From positions 1-64,000 of the forward strand of contig JAHLKF010000023.1 of the NCBI GenBank assembly GCA_025558075.1: DNA of 64,000 nucleotides, in the 5' to 3' direction. This document shows, piece by piece, positions 19,241 to 44,276 of the stretch (positions are counted from its first letter, which is position 1; each line of letters begins with the position of its first letter). Both the position numbers and the translations under genes were made by a program. The stretch is from Gaertneriomyces semiglobifer (taxonomy: Eukaryota > Chytridiomycota > Chytridiomycetes > Spizellomycetales > Spizellomycetaceae). The notes beneath the pieces are model-generated. The model searched no databases and had not been told where the DNA came from. It saw only the letters and a list, made by a program, of their open reading frames with translations.

Positions 19241-20056
19241 TAAGGCGTACGACCTCCATCAACCAAGAATACATGAAGGATGATCCACTACAAGTCGAAA
19301 CATTCTAATCAAGTCGCTGGATACCAATGTCAATGGCTTGTAAAGTTTGTTCGTGATGATAGATTGTTTAATTTGATTCCGGTTAAGTTCCAAGAGGCTG
19401 TTTTCCCCATCTTCCATGACGATCCTCATTCTGGTTGACTTGCTCAGATTGTCACTTAAACTCAACCTGAACGGTAGCTGTATATTCACTAGCCCGATTC
19501 CCTTGGTTCTCCACGGCTCTTCGCCTTGTTGTCATCATCACTATCGATATCGGTAGAGCAGCTTTGCCTCCCGTCTCAACTTCAGAGGTGTCTTCTCCAC
19601 AGATCCTTGATCGCGGTGGCAAGTGCATAATATTTGTTGCTCAACTTTGCGACAATGGTCGCTTCAAGGACGCTTCCGTTTCCAGGTCATCAACATCCAC
19701 AGCGAGTCGACCTCATTGATCTCCGTCAACGCTGGGGTATCTAAATAAACCTCACTGCATCCAGCTAACCTTCTGCTGGATAACACTGTCGGAGCTTCGC
19801 AGATTTCTCCGACGACCCTGATGAGCCTGACGAGTTATCGATTGGGAATAACGCGTTATCGATTTGTAATCCTGGGAACCGTAACCTTGGTGATAGATTG
19901 GCGTACGCGTCGTCTTATAAAAGGGAAGTGGGCCCGGCACGCCTTAAACCTCACCACACACACACAGGCATGGATGGAGAGAAACGAGGTGAGCATCCTA
20001 TTACTGCTTACTACCAATGTCGTTCATTATAGTGACCTTCATGCAACTGATAGAAT
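19241..20056. other. Intergenic with an orphan promoter and first-exon-like start
   Basis: A TATA box (cttataaaag) near 19913 is followed by an ATG near 19970 (MDGEKR) and a donor-like GTGAGC directly after it. No matching second exon was found: the 199-bp repeat array begins about 70 bp further on. This may be the 5' end of a gene cut off by the array. Confidence 0.4.
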
Positions 20057-20990
20057 GCGGGTAAGACCTGGCCTTAGCGGGTGGGGGCCGCGCGCTTCGC
20101 CTTAGCGGGAGGTTATAGGCTCTAGCACCGGAATCACTCGAGAACAACTGCAAATTTACTTGGAGGGAAGAGGTGATTAATAATCATCAAGGTAACTTGT
20201 TGTACGCTTGGGTGTCCTATTTCACCTTGATATTCACATATTTTGACTACAGCTTGCGGGTAAGACCTGGCCTTAGCGGGTGGGGGCTGCGCGCTTCGCC
20301 TTAGCGGGAGGTTATAGGCTCTAGCACCGGAATCACTCGAGAACAACTGCAAATTTACTTGGAGGGAAGAGGTGATTAATAATCATCAAGGTAACTTGTT
20401 GTACGCTTGGGTGTCCTATTTCACCTTGATATTCACATATTTTGACTACAGCTTGCGGGTAAGACCTGGCCTTAGCGGGTGGGGGCTGCGCGCTTCGCCT
20501 TAGCGGGAGGTTATAGGCTCTAGCACCGGAATCACTCGAGAACAACTGCAAATTTACTTGGAGGGAAGAGGTGATTAATAATCATCAAGGTAACTTGTTG
20601 TACGCTTGGGTGTCCTATTTCACCTTGATATTCACATATTTTGACTACAGCTTGCGGGTAAGACCTGGCCTTAGCGGGTGGGGGCTGCGCGCTTCGCCTT
20701 AGCGGGAGGTTATAGGCTCTAGCACCGGAATCACTCGAGAACAACTGCAAATTTACTTGGAGGGAAGAGGTGATTAAGAATCATTAAGGTACCTTGTTGC
20801 ACGCTTGGGTGTCCTATTTCACCTTGATATTCACATATTTTGACTACACCTTGCGGGTAAGACCTGGCCTTAACGGGTGGGGGCTTCGCCTTAGCGGGAG
20901 GTTATAGGCTCTAGCACCGGAATCACTCGACAACAACTGCAAATGTACTTGGAGGGAAGAGGTGATTAATAATCATTAAGGTACCTTGGG
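20057..20990. repeat. Five-copy 199-bp tandem repeat
   Basis: Copies start at 20057, 20256, 20455, 20654 and 20853 with gcgggtaagacctggcc. The first four are near-identical; the fourth carries several changes at its end and the fifth has an internal deletion and decays by 20990. Each unit holds ccttagcggg motifs twice (a short internal repeat) and an AT-rich segment (gattaataatcatcaagg). Minus-strand frames of 72 codons repeat exactly with the unit and are not taken as genes. Confidence 0.95.
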
Positions 20991-27175: not shown

Positions 27176-27185
27176 CCTCCCCCGG

Positions 27186-30100
27186 GCAATGGTCAGCGAG
27201 TTTGCATGGCATCGTATATCAAAGTGCCCTGTAGAGCAATGGGAGCGAGTTTGCATGGCATCGTATATCAAAGTGCCCTGTAGAGCAATGGGAGCGAGTT
27301 TGCATGGCATCGTATATCAAACTGCCCTGTAGAGCAATGGGAGCGAGTTTGCATGGCATCGTATATCAAAGTGCCCTGTAGAGCAATGGGAGCGAGTTTG
27401 CATGGCATCGTATATCAAAGTGCCCTGTAGAGCAATGGGAGCGAGTTTGCATGGCATCGTATATCAAACTGCCCTGTAAAGCAATGGGAGCGAGTTTGCA
27501 TGGCATCGTATATCAAAGTGCCCTGTAGAGCAATGGGAGCGAGTTTGCATGGCATCGTATATCAAAGTGCCCTGTAGAGCAATGGGAGCGAGTTTGCATG
27601 GCATCGTATATCAAAGTGCCCTGTAGAGCAATGGTCAGTGAGTTTGCATGGCATCGTATATCAAACTGCCCTGTAGAGCAATGGGAGCGAGTTTGCATGG
27701 CATCGTATATCAAACTGCCCTGTAGAGCAATGGGAGCGAGTTTGCATGGCATCGTATATCAAAGTGCCCTGTAGAGCAATGGGAGCGAGTTTGCATGGCA
27801 TCGTATATCAAAGTGCCCTGTAGAGCAATGGGAGCGAGTTTGCATGGCATCGTATATCAAAGTGCCCTGTAGAGCAATGGGAGCGAGTTTGCATGGCATC
27901 GTATATCAAACTGCCCTGTAGAGTAATGGGAGCGAGTTTGCATGGCATCGTATATCAAAGTGCCCTGTAGAGCAATGGGAGCGAGTTTGCATGGCATCGT
28001 ATATCAAACTGCCCTGTAGAGCAATGGGAGCGAGTTTGCATGGCATCGTATATCAAAGTGCCCTGTAGAGCAATGGGAGCAAGTTTGCATGGCATCGTAT
28101 ATCAAACTGCCCTGTAGAGCAATGGGAGCGAGTTTGCATGGCATCGTATATCAAAGTGCCCTGTAGAGCAATGGGAGCGAGTTTGCATGGCATCGTATAT
28201 CAAAGTGCCCTGTAGAGCAATGGGAGCGAGTTTGCATGGCATCGTATATCAAAGTGCCCTGTAGAGCAATGGTCAGCGAGTTTGCATGGCATCGTATATC
28301 AAACTGCCCTGTAGAGCAATGGGAGCGAGTTTGCATGGCATCGTATATCAAAGTGCCCTGTAGAGCAATGAGAGCGAGTTTGCATGGCATCGTATATCAA
28401 AGTGCCCTGTAGAGCAATGAGAGCGAGTTTGCATGGCATCGTATATCAAAGTGCCCTGTAGAGCAATGGGAGCAAGTTTGCATGGCATCGTATATCAAAG
28501 TGCCCTGTAGAGCAATGGGAGCGAGTTTGCATGGCATCGTATATCAAACTGCCCTGTAGAGTAATGGGAGCGAGTTTGCATGGCATCGTATATCAAAGTG
28601 CCCTGTAGAGCAATGGGAGCGAGTTTGCATGGCATCGTATATCAAACTGCCCTGTAGAGCAATGGGAGCGAGTTTGCATGGCATCGTATATCAAAGTGCC
28701 CTGTAGAGCAATGGGAGCAAGTTTGCATGGCATCGTATATCAAACTGCCCTGTAGAGCAATGGGAGCGAGTTTGCATGGCATCGTATATCAAACTGCCCT
28801 GTAGAGCAATGGGAGCGAGTTTGCATGGCATCGTATATCAAAGTGCCCTGTAGAGCAATGGGAGCGAGTTTGCATGGCATCGTATATCAAAGTGCCCTGT
28901 AGAGCAATGGGAGCGAGTTTGCATGGCATCGTATATCAAAGTGCCCTGTAGAGCAATGAGAGCGAGTTTGCATGGCATCGTATATCAAAGTGCCCTGTAG
29001 AGCAATGGGAGCGAGTTTGCATGGCATCGTATATCAAAGTGCCCTGTAGAGCAATGGTCAGCGAGTTTGCATGGCATCGTATATCAAACGGCCCTGTAGA
29101 GCAATGGGAGCGAGTTTGCATGGCATCGTATATCAAAGTGCCCTGTAGAGCAATGGTCAGCGAGTTTGCATGGCATCGTATATCAAACTGCCCTGTAGAG
29201 CAATGGGAGCGAGTTTGCATGGCATCGTATATCAAAGTGCCCTGTAGAGCAATGGGAGCGAGTTTGCATGGCATCGTATATCAAAGTGCCCTGTAGAGCA
29301 ATGGGAGCGAGTTTGCATGGCATCGTATATCAAAGTGCCCTGTAGAGCAATGGGAGCGAGTTTGCATGGCATCGTATATCAAAGTGCCCTGTAGAGCAAT
29401 GGTCAGCGAGTTTGCATGGCCTCGTATATCAAAGTGCCCTGTAGAGCAATGGGAGCGAGTTTGCATGGCATCGTATATTAAAGTGCCCTGTAGAGCAATG
29501 GGAGCGAGTTTGCATGGCATCGTATATCAAAGTGCCCTGTAGAGCAATGGGAGCGAGTTTGCATGGCATCGTATATCAAAGTGCCCTGTAGAGCAATGGG
29601 AGGGAGTTTGCATGGCATCGTATATCAAACTGCCCTGTAGAGCAATGGGAGCGAGTTTGCATGGCATCGTATATCAAACTGCCCTGTAGAGCAATGGGAG
29701 CGAGTTTGCATGGCATCGTATATCAAAGTGCCCTGTAGAGCAATGGGAGCGAGTTTGCATGGCATCGTATATCAAAGTGCCCTGTAGAGCAATGGTCAGC
29801 GAGTTTGCATGGCATCGTATATCAAAGTGCCCTGTAGAGCAATGGGAGCGAGTTTGCATGGCATCGTATATCAAAGTGCCCTGTAGAGCAATGGTCAGCG
29901 AGTTTGCATGGCATCGTATATCAAACTGCCCTGTAGAGCAATGGGAGCGAGTTTGCATGGCATCGTATATCAAAGTGCCCTGTAGAGCAATGCGAGCGAG
30001 TTTGCATGGCATCGTATATCAAAGTGCCCTGTAGAGCAATGGGAGCGAGTTTGCATGGCATCGTATATCAAACTGCCCTGTAGAGTAATGGGAGCGAGTT

Positions 30101-33100
30101 TGCATGGCATCGTATATCAAAGTGCCCTGTAGAGCAATGGGAGCGAGTTTGCATGGCATCGTATATCAAACTGCCCTGTAGAGCAATGGGAGCGAGTTTG
30201 CATGGCATCGTATATCAAAGTGCCCTGTAGAGCAATGAGAGCGAGTTTGCATGGCATCGTATATCAAAGTGCCCTGTAGAGCAATGAGAGCGAGTTTGCA
30301 TGGCATCGTATATCAAAGTGCCCTGTAGAGCAATGGGAGCAAGTTTGCATGGCATCGTATATCAAAGTGCCCTGTAGAGCAATGGGAGCGAGTTTGCATG
30401 GCATCGTATATCAAACTGCCCTGTAGAGTAATGGGAGCGAGTTTGCATGGCATCGTATATCAAAGTGCCCTGTAGAGCAATGGGAGCGAGTTTGCATGGC
30501 ATCGTATATCAAACTGCCCTGTAGAGCAATGGGAGCGAGTTTGCATGGCATCGTATATCAAAGTGCCCTGTAGAGCAATGGGAGCGAGTTTGCATGGCAT
30601 CGTATATCAAAGTGCCCTGTAGAGCAATGGGAGCGAGTTTGCATGGCATCGTATATCAAAGTGCCCTGTAGAGCAATGAGAGCGAGTTTGCATGGCATCG
30701 TATATCAAACTGCCCTGTAGAGCAATGGTCAGCGAGTTTGCATGGCATCGTATATCAAACTGCCCTGTAGAGCAATGGGAGCGAGTTTGCATGGCATCGT
30801 ATATCAAAGTGCCCTGTAGAGCAATGGGAGCGAGTTTGCATGGCATCGTATATCAAAGTGCCCTGTAGAGCAATGGGAGCGAGTTTGCATGGCATCGTAT
30901 ATCAAACTGCCCTGTAGAGCAATGGTCAGCGAGTTTGCATGGCATCGTATATCAAACTGCCCTGTAGAGCAATGGTCAGCGAGTTTGCATGGCATCGTAT
31001 ATCAAAGTGCCCTGTAGAGCAATGGGAGCGAGTTTGCATGGCATCGTATATCAAAGTGCCCTGTAGAGCAATGGTCAGCGAGTTTGCATGGCATCGTATA
31101 TCAAACGGCCCTGTAGAGCAATGGGAGCGAGTTTGCATGGCATCGTATATCAAAGTGCCCTGTAGAGCAATGGGAGCGAGTTTGCATGGCATCGTATATC
31201 AAAGTGCCCTGTAGAGCAATGGTCAGCGAGTTTGCATGGCATCGTATATCAAACTGCCCTGTAGAGCAATGCGAGCGAGTTTGCATGGCATCGTATATCA
31301 AACTGCCCTGTAGAGCAATGGTCAGCGAGTTTGCATGGCATCGTATATCAAACTGCCCTGTAGAGCAATGGGAGCGAGTTTGCATGGCATCGTATATCAA
31401 AGTGCCCTGTAGAGCAATGGGAGCGAGTTTGCATGGCATCGTATATCAAACTGCCCTGTAGAGCAATGGTCAGCGAGTTTGCATGGCATCGTATATCAAA
31501 CTGCCCTGTAGAGCAATGGGAGCGAGTTTGCATGGCATCGTATATCAAAGTGCCCTGTAGAGCAATGGGAGCGAGTTTGCATGGCATCGTATATCAAAGT
31601 GCCCTGTAGAGCAATGGGAGCGAGTTTGCATGGCATCGTATATCAAAGTGCCCTGTAGAGCAATGAGAGCGAGTTTGCATGGCATCGTATATCAAAGTGC
31701 CCTGTAGAGCAATGGGAGCGAGTTTGCATGGCATCGTATATCAAAGTGCCCTGTAGAGCAATGGTCAGCGAGTTTGCATGGCATCGTATATCAAACGGCC
31801 CTGTAGAGCAATGGGAGCGAGTTTGCATGGCATCGTATATCAAAGTGCCCTGTAGAGCAATGGGAGCGAGTTTGCATGGCATCGTATATCAAAGTGCCCT
31901 GTAGAGCAATGGTCAGCGAGTTTGCATGGCATCGTATATCAAACTGCCCTGTAGAGCAATGGTCAGCGAGTTTGCATGGCATCGTATATCAAACTGCCCT
32001 GTAGAGCAATGGGAGCGAGTTTGCATGGCATCGTATATCAAAGTGCCCTGTAGAGCAATGGGAGCGAGTTTGCATGGCATCGTATATCAAAGTGCCCTGT
32101 AGAGCAATGGGAGCGAGTTTGCATGGCATCGTATATCAAAGTGCCCTGTAGAGCAATGAGAGCGAGTTTGCATGGCATCGTATATCAAAGTGCCCTGTAG
32201 AGCAATGGGAGCGAGTTTGCATGGCATCGTATATCAAAGTGCCCTGTAGAGCAATGGTCAGCGAGTTTGCATGGCATCGTATATCAAACGGCCCTGTAGA
32301 GCAATGGGAGCGAGTTTGCATGGCATCGTATATCAAAGTGCCCTGTAGAGCAATGGGAGCGAGTTTGCATGGCATCGTATATCAAAGTGCCCTGTAGAGC
32401 AATGGTCAGCGAGTTTGCATGGCATCGTATATCAAACTGCCCTGTAGAGCAATGCGAGCGAGTTTGCATGGCATCGTATATCAAAGTGCCCTGTAGAGCA
32501 ATGGTCAGCGAGTTTGCATGGCATCGTATATCAAAGTGCCCTGTAGAGCAATGGGAGCGAGTTTGCATGGCATCGTATATCAAACTGCCCTGTAGAGCAA
32601 TGGTCAGCGAGTTTGCATGGCATCGTATATCAAACTGCCCTGTAGAGCAATGGGAGCGAGTTTGCATGGCATCGTATATCAAAGTGCCCTGTAGAGCAAT
32701 GGGAGCGAGTTTGCATGGCATCGTATATCAAACTGCCCTGTAGAGCAATGGGAGCGAGTTTGCATGGCATCGTATATCAAAGTGCCCTGTAGAGCAATGG
32801 GAGCGAGTTTGCATGGCATCGTATATCAAAGTGCCCTGTAGAGCAATGGGAGCGAGTTTGCATGGCATCGTATATCAAAGTGCCCTGTAGAGCAATGGTC
32901 AGCGAGTTTGCATGGCATCGTATATCAAACTGCCCTGTAGAGCAATGGGAGCGAGTTTGCATGGCATCGTATATCAAACTGCCCTGTAGAGCAATGGTCA
33001 GCGAGTTTGCATGGCATCGTATATCAAACTGCCCTGTAGAGCAATGGGAGCGAGTTTGCATGGCATCGTATATCAAAGTGCCCTGTAGAGCAATGGGAGC

Positions 33101-33422
33101 GAGTTTGCATGGCATCGTATATCAAAGTGCCCTGTAGAGCAATGGGAGCGAGTTTGCATGGCATCGTATATCAAAGTGCCCTGTAGAGCAATGGGAGCGA
33201 GTTTGCATGGCATCGTATATCAAAGTGCCCTGTAGAGCAATGGGAGCGAGTTTGCATGGCATCGTATATCAAACTGCCCTGTAGAGCAATGGTCAGCGAG
33301 TTTGCATGGCATCGTATATCAAACTGCCCTGTAGAGCAATGGGAGCGAGTTTGCATGGCATCGTATATCAAAGTGCCCTGTAGAGCAATGGAAGCGAGTT
33401 TGCATGGCATCGTATATCAAAG
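27186..33422 (+). repeat. 6.2-kb tandem array of a 49/50-bp tRNA-Arg 5'-half unit
   Basis: Roughly 125-128 units. The 49-bp form is gccctgtagagcaatggga followed by gcgagtttgcatggcatcg and tatatcaaagt; the 50-bp form has ggtcagcgag where the former has gggagcgag. Other variable sites: aaagtg/aaactg/aaacgg before ccctg, and occasional gagta, gcgag, gagag changes. The part gccctgtagagcaatggtcagc equals nt 2-23 of the tRNA-Arg gene at the array's right end, and the other ~27 bp equals that gene's immediate 5' flank. Identical variant orders recur about 493 bp apart in the right third (e.g. 31643-31882 and 32136-32375), a higher-order repeat. Because units are not multiples of three, open frames in it are by-products. 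Confidence 0.95.
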
Positions 33423-33495
33423 GGCCCTGTAGAGCAATGGTCAGCTCGTTGGACTTCGGATCCAGAGGTTGCAGGTTCGAGTCCTGCCAGGGTCG
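33423..33495 (+). tRNA. tRNA-Arg (anticodon UCG)
   Basis: A 73-nt cloverleaf: acceptor GGCCCTG/CAGGGTC (one G-U), D stem GAGC/GCTC with loop AATGGTCA, anticodon stem TTGGA/TCCAG (first pair T-G) with loop CTTCGGA giving anticodon TCG, variable AGGTT, T stem GCAGG/CCTGC with loop TTCGAGT, discriminator G. There is no intron. The B box (GGTTCGAGTCC) is present, and a T6 run at 33501-33506 is a Pol III terminator. The gene reads CGA codons. It is the only full-length copy at the end of the tandem array whose units contain its first 23 nt and its 5' flank. Confidence 0.95.
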
Positions 33496-35069
33496 TTTCA
33501 TTTTTTGCTTTTTCTCGAATTGTTGGGAGCTTCGAGCGCGCTTTGCTCGCTCATCCGTGTCGATCGTCGATCGTATCGCAGGTCATTTGTCTAGCACCTG
33601 TCCTGAAGATGCATAGCGGCGAGCTAGCAAATCGAAATCAGTGCTGTGAGGATAACATCTGCGTCTATAGTGTCCCATAACAGGTATAACGTTGACGGGA
33701 AGCAGGAGTGGAACGAGCAGTCTAAATCAAGAATGCCCGACCACAAGAAGGTCGGGTGTGCAAACCAGCAATTGTCGTACTCCGCCCTCTAGCAAGAATG
33801 GCCTAAACATTTACAATGTTTCCAAGTGCCCGAGTTTGCTCGTTGTCGTGAAGAATTGATGCAAGCGCGGCAACAAGCATTGTATTGATCCTTCCAAAAA
33901 ACCAATCAATGCACCGAAATTGCTCACGATCCCTTAACCGGTATACACTCTTTGGATTAAAATGAACAACATCATCATTGTGCTTATAACAAGCGAGTAC
34001 CTTAGTTGCTAGCGATCGCATTCTTTTCCAAATTCGTCTTGTGCTTGACAAACAAACCAGGCATTCTGGAACTTACATTAGCGAACGCGAATGAGAAGGC
34101 GACACGCATAGCTCCCAAGACAACAGCACGCCGACCTACCACAGAACGGCGACCGAGCACACTCAACCCAGGGCGAAAACATACTCTGTGTACGATCCAT
34201 TTCAAAAATTTATATAATCCGCCAACATTGATTACTTAAAGAGCAACAACATCCTGTCTCTTAATTGCGGTGGCATCCCATTAACACTGCTCAGGTCAAA
34301 GGGCTACCAACAATTTACGAGAGGAATTGACGAAAATATCAAGAGGTATCACTTCTCTTGCCTGAAAGATCTTACCCAGGTTGTGAGGATGACAGTCCGC
34401 ATCAGCTAGCACTGACGTGGCTAACGCCGAAACTGACATGAGTGTGTTATCCAGGACACTTCAACCAATACCTTCCATGAGCTCTTGAAGGAGTGTCCCA
34501 GAACGTGACCATGGTAATGCAGTGATAAAACTGGCGGAAGTGGGTCAGCAGGCAACAATTCCAGTAATGCGAGCGGCGCTTGAATGCGCTCCAGGTGCTA
34601 GAAGAGAGTGGTGTTTATCACGAGCATCTCAACGGAGGCATTCACAATGCCCATAAGACGAGGTAAGGAGGGAGAGTTACAACGAGGCAAGGAATGATAA
34701 GAAGAGGGTCGCGAGTGTGAACATGACGCTGGGAACAGGTGCGGGGGTACCATGCTCTGAATGACTTGAGCGAATGAACTAAAATGGATCGGTCTCAAAA
34801 CTGGACCTCTGATGGGTGAAAGTCCCCCAAAGTTACGCTTGAACGTAAGCAGATACTCGAGAGTTCATTGTGTCCTTTTGCTCAACTCAAAAAGCATGTT
34901 ACGTTAGAATCTGTGCCGAGGGAGCTTTTGACAAAAAAAGGCTGCTGCGAGAATCTTGCGAATTATTTCCGGAAGGAAACGTATGATGTTGGCATAATTC
35001 TGAAGGCAATCAGCACATACTACCTGTACACGCTATTTTTGGTCTCAGCTATCGTTCGTGTGGTCCCTC
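33496..35069. other. Gene-poor stretch right of the array
   Basis: No supported gene. A minus-strand frame (34051-33803) reads VVHFNPKSVYRLRD and FRCIDWFFGR and looks non-random, but no start, intron or family could be given; it may be another gene fragment. The remainder shows no repeats or RNA genes. Confidence 0.35.
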
Positions 35070-42434: not shown

Positions 42435-42824
42435 TCAGATTTTGTAAAAGTTCTTCAAGTACCGCTCTGCCTCCTTGTATTCCTGCTTTGCTTGTTTGAT
42501 CAGCCCGGTAATTCTCCGCAATGCGTCTGCCGGTGTCAGACTCCCCGTGCCATGCTCGTCCTTTAAATTTCCAAAATGTTGCATCTTCTCGCAGCTTGCC
42601 TTCACCTTGACCAAACCCAGTGCTGCCGAGGAACCTTTCAGGAAATGGCCAAGACGTGAGAGCGCCGGTAGATCTTCCTGAGCAAGTGCATCGTCCATTT
42701 GTGTAAAGGTCGTTTCTGCTTGATCAAAGTAGTTTACTACGATATCGCGAGAGAAGGAGCGATCTTCGTCATCTTCGTCCATCTGGCGTTTGACGAGATC
42801 ACACCAAGAGAGGAGGGGAACCAT
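42435..42824 (-). CDS. YPD1: Ypd1-type histidine phosphotransfer protein
   Basis: Minus-strand frame ending TGA (42437-42435). The HPt core is clear: FSRDIVVNYFDQAETTFTQM then HFLKGSSAALG, in which the histidine accepts the phosphoryl group, followed by the four-helix-bundle C-terminal half (CEKMQHFG...YLKNFYKI). Ypd1 passes phosphate from hybrid histidine kinases (Sln1 type) to response regulators Ssk1 and Skn7 in osmotic and oxidative stress. I chose the ATG at 42824 (MVPLLSW), giving 129 residues with the acidic MDEDDED lead-in typical of the family; an upstream exon may add a few residues. The gene is convergent with RPS29. Confidence 0.9.
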   Translation of the reverse strand: MVPLLSWCDLVKRQMDEDDEDRSFSRDIVVNYFDQAETTFTQMDDALAQEDLPALSRLGHFLKGSSAALGLVKVKASCEKMQHFGNLKDEHGTGSLTPADALRRITGLIKQAKQEYKEAERYLKNFYKI

Positions 42825-44276
42825 GAATGAATAAGGAGGTAAAAAGAAAGATCGCCGGTTAATGATGAGACATGTTGAACGCACAAGGCTCATTTGTCCG
42901 CCGTTCACATGACAGTGACAGTCGCTCTGCATTGCGGAATGATCCCATTTTTCGACTGTGCTGGAATCTGCCCCGTTTATACTAGCGAATCTGTCTACAG
43001 GTGATACGGTTTTTGTGCACTAGCTTAAAAATAGGTGGCGCAGGGGTTGTTCCCGAAACCTATTCTGCTTGTTGTCCGTTCCGCCACTGTGCGCACAAGA
43101 TCGGCTGGCATCGCCGAACAGCCAACTCACCTCCAACAGTTGGTCGAAGATGCTATGATCCACGATCTCATCTGAGGCCATTTTTGGTATCTATGTTTTG
43201 TCTGGGGCGTGTGATCGGGAGGTGGGGGTGTTCAACAGCAGTTTTTGTCAAGTCCACACGCGATGACGCTGATGCTTTTCCGGGAAACCTGCCGTCGTAA
43301 CTCTCCGAGACGCTCGATGCCCAGCCGTGGTCCGTGACGCTGCGTGAAAGTGTGTGCGGCCGATGCTCGTCTACTTTGAGGCGCTAGGCTGCCGATGGCG
43401 TTGGAAGCGTTGTTCGAAATGCCCGGCTGCGTTTGTGCGAACCGAAAATTGGGCTCCCATTGTTATTGAGACCCTTGTTGCATGGCTGTGCCACGATCAT
43501 GAGTCACAATGACACCGACAGGCCATCCACCCGCGGGAGCAACTACTGTTCCGAGGGCGGCGGCACTTTTTTTTTGGTTTATCTGTTGGACGGGATATCG
43601 AACATGAATGATTAAGGCAATGATTGAGCTGTGAGGGCAGTAAAGATATCGGCGTATGGCATGGGAAATGCACGCACGAAGCAATCGCAGACGTGGGGAC
43701 CGATGCATATCTGCATGAGATGGTTTCTGCTCTGTGTGTGCATACTGTGAAATACGCGGTTCGACATTTGATGCCACAATCACCCTAAGAAAGGATGGAA
43801 TAACCGGTGCAAGCACCCATCCACATCCATCCACATCCATCCACATCCATCCACATCCTATCGAGAAATGCCACACCTGCAAAAGACTTGTTTCGCTCTG
43901 AACGTTGCATTGTACTAGTAAAATAAGGTTCTGTTTATCGTCGTTGTGAGTCGCGAACGGCGCGCCGCTTTCCGTTTTGGGGCCTCAGCGCGCATTTGAC
44001 GGGTCAATCAACATGACTGTGCCGCTGCTTAACGTGACTGTGCCGTTGATTTGTGCGGACAAAGCAACTTTTAGCGCCCAAGTTGCAAGTTTTTGGAAAA
44101 CGGCCTTCAGCGAAACGATAGACAAAGGACCGGCAGGCAAAGCAGGACCTGCCAAAAGCGAGGACATCGGATAGTCCCCCCATCGAGCAGAGGCCTCTTG
44201 CATACGTCGAACTTGACGGACACATACTCCTACAACCTTCTCGGCGGGATTCCAGGATCCACTCATATCGCAAGCC
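42825..44276. other. Intergenic with a 10-bp microsatellite
   Basis: No complete gene supported. The 5' exons of the membrane protein gene probably lie in 43990-44276, where one frame reads MTVPLLNVTVPLICADK (from 44012) and another NLTDTYSYNLLGG, but I could not join them. Confidence 0.35.
43816..43858. repeat. 10-bp tandem repeat (ccatccacat)n
   Basis: Four copies of ccatccacat in a row in intergenic sequence. Confidence 0.9.

Follow-up and report, generated by a model that had tools for sequence, protein, structure and literature searches.

Half-tRNA satellite DNA ending in an intact tRNA-Arg(UCG) gene, and arrays of similar build at other tRNA genes, in the chytrid Gaertneriomyces semiglobifer

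In the soil chytrid Gaertneriomyces semiglobifer, the transfer RNA (tRNA) gene tRNA-Arg(UCG) is preceded by a satellite of 126 units, each of which joins the leader of the gene to the start of the gene itself, and the array closes with the only complete copy. It lies in the stretch analysed here, hereafter the window, i.e. positions 1 to 64,000 (64,000 bp) of contig JAHLKF010000023.1 of assembly GCA_025558075.1. This half-tRNA satellite is real and unusual, chance is no explanation for it, and arrays of similar build accompany several other tRNA genes, so that tRNA genes in G. semiglobifer seem to seed satellite DNA repeatedly. The features of the locus are the following.

27186..33422, forward strand: satellite of 126 whole units (leader plus start of tRNA-Arg), closing with the gene's own leader (Tandem Repeats Finder, unit parsing, genome search).
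27184..27198, forward strand: left edge of the array, a truncated unit GGGCAATGGTCAGCG that matches the tRNA from nt 12 on (sequence).
33397..33422, forward strand: final leader copy, abutting the intact gene, with the 3' end CAAAG (sequence, unit parsing).
33423..33495, forward strand: intact tRNA-Arg(UCG) gene (ARAGORN, Rfam, DNA search).
33430..33440, forward strand: TAGAGCAATGG, at what we take to be the A box of the intact gene (sequence).
33474..33484, forward strand: B box GGTTCGAGTCC of the intact gene (pattern search, count).
33501..33513, forward strand: T runs 3' of the gene, probably the RNA polymerase III (Pol III) terminator (sequence).

Tandem Repeats Finder delimited the repeat as 27186-33440, with a period of 49, 127.1 copies and 96 % matches, and unit parsing distinguished 16 unit variants, with 102 of the units 49 bp and 24 of them 50 bp long, which confirms the about 126 units of 49/50 bp described in the initial annotation. 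The anchor TTTGCATGGC occurs 127 times, i.e. in the 126 whole units and in the leader of the gene itself. Each unit consists of a 26-27 bp leader, mostly GAGTTTGCATGGCATCGTATATCAAA(G/C), in agreement with the ~27 bp of 5' flank first reported, followed by the start of tRNA-Arg(UCG). That this start comprises the first ~23 nt of the tRNA holds for the 24 50-mers, in which the match to the gene reaches nt 23, and does not hold for the 49-mers, in which the consensus matches only to nt 18 and the D loop differs thereafter. Mean pairwise identity among the 49-mers is 98.0 %. tRNA position 1, a G in the gene, is T in 122 of the 126 units (98 of the 102 49-mers and all 24 50-mers) and G in the other four, and the gene's own start, AAAGGGCCC, is found in none of the 126 array units. 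The A-box string TAGAGCAATGG is present in 110 copies within the array.

At 33423 the array passes without a gap into the intact gene, as had been claimed. ARAGORN identified one tRNA gene in the window, a tRNA-Arg with anticodon tcg (33423-33495, forward strand), which is also the sole window match to Rfam RF00005 at the gathering threshold (68.4 bits); it possesses its B box and a probable terminator. With near-identical units of tens of bp arranged head to tail in many copies, the locus has the organization that defines satellites and minisatellites.

The array is also confined to this locus. When the genome (20.86 Mb in 66 contigs, with the window on contig C23) was searched, all scored matches of the Arg unit (at least 104) fell inside the array, and no Arg-unit motifs were found elsewhere in the window. 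A DNA search at E <= 10, which distant isoacceptors may escape, gave no second genome match for the tRNA-Arg(UCG) gene. Similar repeats without a tRNA, which had been named at the outset as pointing to a different origin of the unit, do not exist for the Arg unit among these matches; the other families described below include a few, on contigs C7, C9 and C10.

The order of the unit variants is informative about growth. With the units numbered from 0, the longest block repeat spans ten units (DBAAEACHAC) and starts at units 86 and 96; a block of eight recurs at units 22 and 60, and one of seven at units 32, 87 and 97. A repeat of at least ten units was obtained in only 2 of 2000 shuffles of the unit order. 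No constant higher-order period stands out in the autocorrelation of unit types of the Arg array, which contains local block repeats only. These blocks suggest that the array grew as blocks were duplicated or exchanged unequally. Slippage or unequal crossover at the tRNA gene, one of several explanations offered initially, is therefore the best supported of them: multi-unit blocks recur, and the single intact gene is an automatic product of the duplication. Additionally, 50-mers are commoner towards the gene (1, 3, 3, 6, 5 and 6 per 21-unit block from left to right), as expected if gene-like units lie nearer to it.

The initial annotation had treated the array as a single odd locus; instead, 9 of 100 sampled tRNA genes have pieces of their own sequence nearby. 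The sample derives from 63 Rfam-scored places among 1078 first-look candidates, plus matches to two B-box patterns (141 and 127 places, versus 59 and 69 with the patterns reversed), of which part of the first 100 or so per pattern was used. Merged with the window and with stretches chosen for their arrays, it comprises 169 segments (299,634 bp) with 100 ARAGORN tRNA genes of 32 anticodon classes. It is a partial sample from which Gly, Phe and Tyr are absent, and at least two of its four tRNA-Trp calls look doubtful. Since upstream sequence was covered for less than 600 bp at 50 of the 100 genes (least 7 bp), arrays may have been missed.

Cognate pieces were counted within 600 bp of the gene (less where less was covered), with at most 2 mismatches in 18 and outside annotated tRNAs. 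Pieces of the 5' part were found upstream of Arg-UCG, Ala-CGC (C8), Cys-GCA (C4, C6 and C39) and Ser-GCU (C22), and pieces of the 3' part downstream of Arg-UCU on C4 and C5. At Trp (C3), the middle and 3' part is repeated downstream, and four upstream 5' pieces appear only at 3 mismatches. The arrangement is thus sided: 5' pieces lie upstream only and 3' pieces downstream only, the downstream Trp copy consisting of the middle and 3' part. Non-cognate control pairs gave 0 of 2860 at 2 mismatches and 4 of 2860 at 3.

Half copies were counted outside intact genes with at most 4 mismatches, a level at which isolated matches also turn up in other places and carry little weight. The Arg-UCG array has 126, followed by Cys on C4 with at least 98 (58 and 40 in two parts, the 10.1 kb between them uncovered); the Cys counts on other contigs are 17 (C6), 4 (C7) and 1 (C39). 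There are 16 half copies at Ala-CGC on C8, in units of 50 bp, 7 at Ser (C22) and 7 at Trp (C3), while 3'-half copies of Arg-UCU number 4 on C5 and 1 on C4. The Ala-CGC gene on C17 has no array in the ~520 bp examined upstream. Conversely, ARAGORN gave no tRNA in the stretches examined around the half-tRNA repeats of Cys on C7, of Trp on C9 and of Ser on C10, the last located 2.7 kb upstream of a Ser-GCU gene. Unit lengths are 49/50 bp for Arg-UCG, 50 for Ala, 51 or 52 plus 39 for Cys, 45-48 for Ser, 63 plus 39 for Trp and 51 for Arg-UCU, and most unit types across the families measure 46-52 bp.

Some further details of these loci deserve mention. In the Arg-UCU 3'-half copies (C5:1201101-1201371 and C4:58010-58097), GGTTCGAACC of the gene is replaced by GCTTCGAACC. 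Each of the tRNA-Trp genes at C3:759664-760300 and C9:152591-152957 is followed by a second Trp-like copy with an altered 5' end, and a long terminal repeat (LTR) lies between the two copies on C3. At C4:1115747-1116649, 2.6 kb from the Cys array, a minisatellite of 35 bp units (15.0 copies) adjoins one of 32 bp units (11.7 copies), and neither contains obvious tRNA sequence. The regions C9:101473-113935 and C53:3833-16298 have near-equal tRNA spacing, which suggests a segmental duplication or a second haplotype.

In alignments of the units to their genes, the break falls at nt 23 in the Arg-UCG 50-mer, nt 23-25 in Cys, nt 25-33 in Ser and nt 46 in the 3'-type Arg-UCU. For Ala, nt 23 is the last ungapped match and the aligner continues to nt 29; for Trp, the common unit breaks at nt 32. 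In all six families the breaks thus fall between the A and B boxes, which we take to span about nt 8-19 and nt 52-62, respectively, and the segment about -27 to +23 is found in the Arg-UCG, Ala and 51-bp Cys units.

The edges of minisatellites (period 20-250, at least 2.8 copies, score of at least 120) were compared with the MINISATELLITE background. The comparison omits four array-prompted segments (C4, C7, C9 and C10) and edges created by segment ends, and keeps other array-prompted stretches that extend tRNA loci; where an array was seeded at a tRNA gene, its far end was assigned to the remaining sequence. Seven edges fell in the 22,425 bp within 75 bp of a tRNA gene, compared to 21 in the other 263,905 bp, i.e. 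a 3.9-fold higher density (binomial p 0.005), which gives modest support because the cut-offs were set after the arrays had been seen and the edges are not independent.

Starting from the observed anatomy, recurrence, sidedness, block repeats and breaks between the A and B boxes, we consider it probable that the array is a young minisatellite grown to satellite size and born from tandem duplication of ~50 bp straddling the 5' end of the tRNA gene. The first event would have been a tandem duplication of the segment about -27 to +23, by which a second copy of leader and 5' part would have come to lie ahead of the rest of the gene. The number would then have risen to 126 through further slippage and through unequal exchange of blocks of several units. 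Similar arrays would have formed in five families at the 5' end, Arg-UCG included, and in one at the 3' end. The position of the single intact gene at the 3' end follows directly, because any tandem duplication straddling the 5' end of a gene yields the halves first and the whole copy last, while in a 3'-type duplication, which starts within the gene and extends past its end, the whole copy comes first; all six families conform to this. Selection would retain the whole gene copy, no function of the array would be needed, and the arrays probably have no selected function.

As to what seeds the first duplication, Pol III factors on tRNA genes may stall replication forks or misplace flaps. Unprocessed flaps produce duplications in rad27 mutants. 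In yeast, forks pause at tRNA genes, strongly without Rrm3 and more when Pif1 is also lacking (PMC7073672). This pausing offers a cause of local instability at tRNA genes, although half-tRNA arrays are not described in the parts of that study consulted. It is tempting to speculate, at a clearly lower level of confidence, that the limits of the ~50 bp duplicated segments (about -27 to +23 in the 5' type; in the 3' type, from about nt 46 to a point beyond the first T run) are set by the Pol III machinery bound to the gene, that the arrays record replication failure at Pol III-bound genes, and that the tRNA-less half repeats on C7 and C9 are relics.

Several points weigh against this origin or parts of it. 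The piece search requires 18 matching end bases, so that breaks close to an end escape it; allowing for this, the break rule reaches p about 0.05 by hand estimate and is a lead only. The leftmost Trp unit aligns, with gaps, to nt 64. The non-tRNA parts of different families resemble each other more often than anticipated, with 5 of 39 cross-family pairs having scores that no more than 6 of 300 shuffles equalled, against an expectation of about one; this likeness could stem from a common source or from a shared leader motif, e.g. TCAA just 5' of the gene. While the tRNA parts derive from different tRNAs, the likeness of the remainder makes the independent rise of the families a reading and not a result. 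Minisatellites are also present away from tRNA genes, and ordinary minisatellite birth together with selection for one intact gene may explain much. Moreover, the original outer flank is lost and any microhomology of the first duplication is unreadable, and a role of forks and Pol III as the cause is proposed from the sequence of one assembly.

A selected role of the array is improbable, though the best placed of the alternatives. On this view, a tRNA gene present in one copy would be served by the repeated A boxes and leaders, which would attract Pol III factors, buffer them or set up a chromatin boundary, and it fits this idea that the sole tRNA-Arg(UCG) gene found has the most half copies counted (126; next Cys on C4, at least 98) and that the array repeats the A-box string 110 times. 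The B box is the high-affinity site of TFIIIC. However, the B-box core GGTTCRA is absent from the Arg array, as are T or A runs of more than 3, on either strand, so that Pol III would have neither its main factor site nor a stop inside the array. Furthermore, the A-box regions are altered in the Ser and Trp units, extra copies among the three Cys genes range from 1 (C39) to at least 98 (C4), and one of the two Ala-CGC genes is without an array in the stretch examined. Units of four types fold no better than shuffles (z -0.12 for Arg, 0.43 for Ala, -0.63 for Cys and 1.33 for the 3'-type Arg-UCU); in the fold of one 49-mer, the T at tRNA position 1 pairs with the leader in a hairpin, again no better than in shuffles. 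The sequence thus offers no apparent sign of a selected role, and it lends no support to the trap for Pol III, the barrier based on TFIIIC or the production of tRNA-half RNAs proposed in the initial annotation.

Slightly less probable still is an assembly artefact, i.e. an inflated copy number or a misassembled array. The length of the array rests on the assembly alone, yet it has non-repeated flanks on both sides within a single 313 kb contig, its 16 unit variants follow a non-trivial order, and six further 5'-type and two 3'-type loci are found in the same assembly.

It is quite unlikely that the units go back to an old array of complete tRNA genes, each of which would have degenerated and lost its 3' part. 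The leftmost Trp unit would fit, as it aligns over tRNA nt 1-64 with many gaps and only 11 of 1000 shuffles do as well as its remainder. The other nine of ten remainders from five 5' families are nevertheless at chance (equalled by 148 to 964 of 1000 shuffles, with 148 for Arg-UCG) and show no kinship to the tRNA 3' part, so that this origin is not supported for them. The Arg-UCG remainder is, moreover, the gene's own leader, although any array entering its gene shows that.

Least likely of all, an LTR retrotransposon that targets tRNA genes would use the arrays as landing pads or be diverted by them as decoys. In favour of this, a small element with 205 bp LTRs sits within GGACGTAT (tRNA nt 1-8) of the C4 Cys array, a second copy with the same left flank follows the next array stretch, and on C3 an LTR is located 0.3 kb away from tRNA-Trp. 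The idea was rejected because the family is mostly distant from mapped tRNA genes (among 40 scored LTR matches of 122 candidates, only the one on C3 is within 10 kb of a mapped tRNA gene and four, i.e. two elements, are in or beside the C4 Cys array, on an incomplete tRNA map and with the surroundings of only these matches read), the C4 copies may be one insertion copied with the array, and no element interrupts the Arg-UCG array. The two C4 copies, at C4:1120093-1121169 and 1122931-1123964, have their LTRs about 0.83-0.87 kb apart; the first is flanked by CGTAT on both sides and the second has an equal left flank, as if array and insertion had been duplicated together.

Among known systems, the tRNA arrays of Entamoeba are likewise tandem repeats linked to eukaryotic tRNA genes and contain short tandem repeats, but according to the parts of the source consulted each of their units holds whole tRNA genes (PMC2652664). 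The Gaertneriomyces unit contains less than half of a gene and the array terminates in a single intact copy, with one ARAGORN tRNA in the window and no B-box core among the units. Minisatellites share the period of tens of bp, the head-to-tail order and the variants in repeated blocks; unlike in usual minisatellites, the unit straddles the end of a tRNA gene and the pattern recurs at different tRNA genes. Short interspersed elements (SINEs) and satellites derived from tRNAs also repeat a tRNA 5' part with an A box. In contrast to these, the Arg unit lacks the B box that would accompany the A box in each copy, is not dispersed (all scored matches, at least 104, are in the array) and includes the gene's own 5' flank, which argues against passage via a tRNA transcript. 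Extra-TFIIIC or barrier elements would need B boxes that TFIIIC occupies in the absence of Pol III, and the array lacks the B-box core. The suggestion that no satellite of such build had been described agrees with the literature searched, in which we found none, with most subscription journals and bioRxiv outside its scope.

Elsewhere in the window, a 199 bp tandem repeat (4.7 copies) occupies 20056-20988, more than 12 kb from the tRNA gene, and an open reading frame (ORF) of 197 codons at 2-595 consists mostly of a 90/174 bp tandem repeat. The ORF at 62151-63194 matches a G. semiglobifer protein with 93 % identity over 99 %, and on inspection the two differ by an intron left unspliced and at their ends. 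Nine window ORFs were compared with Pfam, and the one match, an Hpt domain (PF01627, E 4e-13) in the reverse-strand ORF at 42435-42932, probably a phosphorelay protein, has no bearing on the array.

The origins of satellites often cannot be traced, the seed having disappeared. In this genome the seed gene remains attached, in several families differing in size and divergence, and constraint has preserved the final copy, so that the point of birth, the breaks and the growth are open to direct reading. The value therefore lies in the series of arrays more than in the Arg array alone, and if it is true that Pol III factors set the ends of the duplications, the G. semiglobifer genome would provide a natural map of where replication and transcription collide at tRNA genes.

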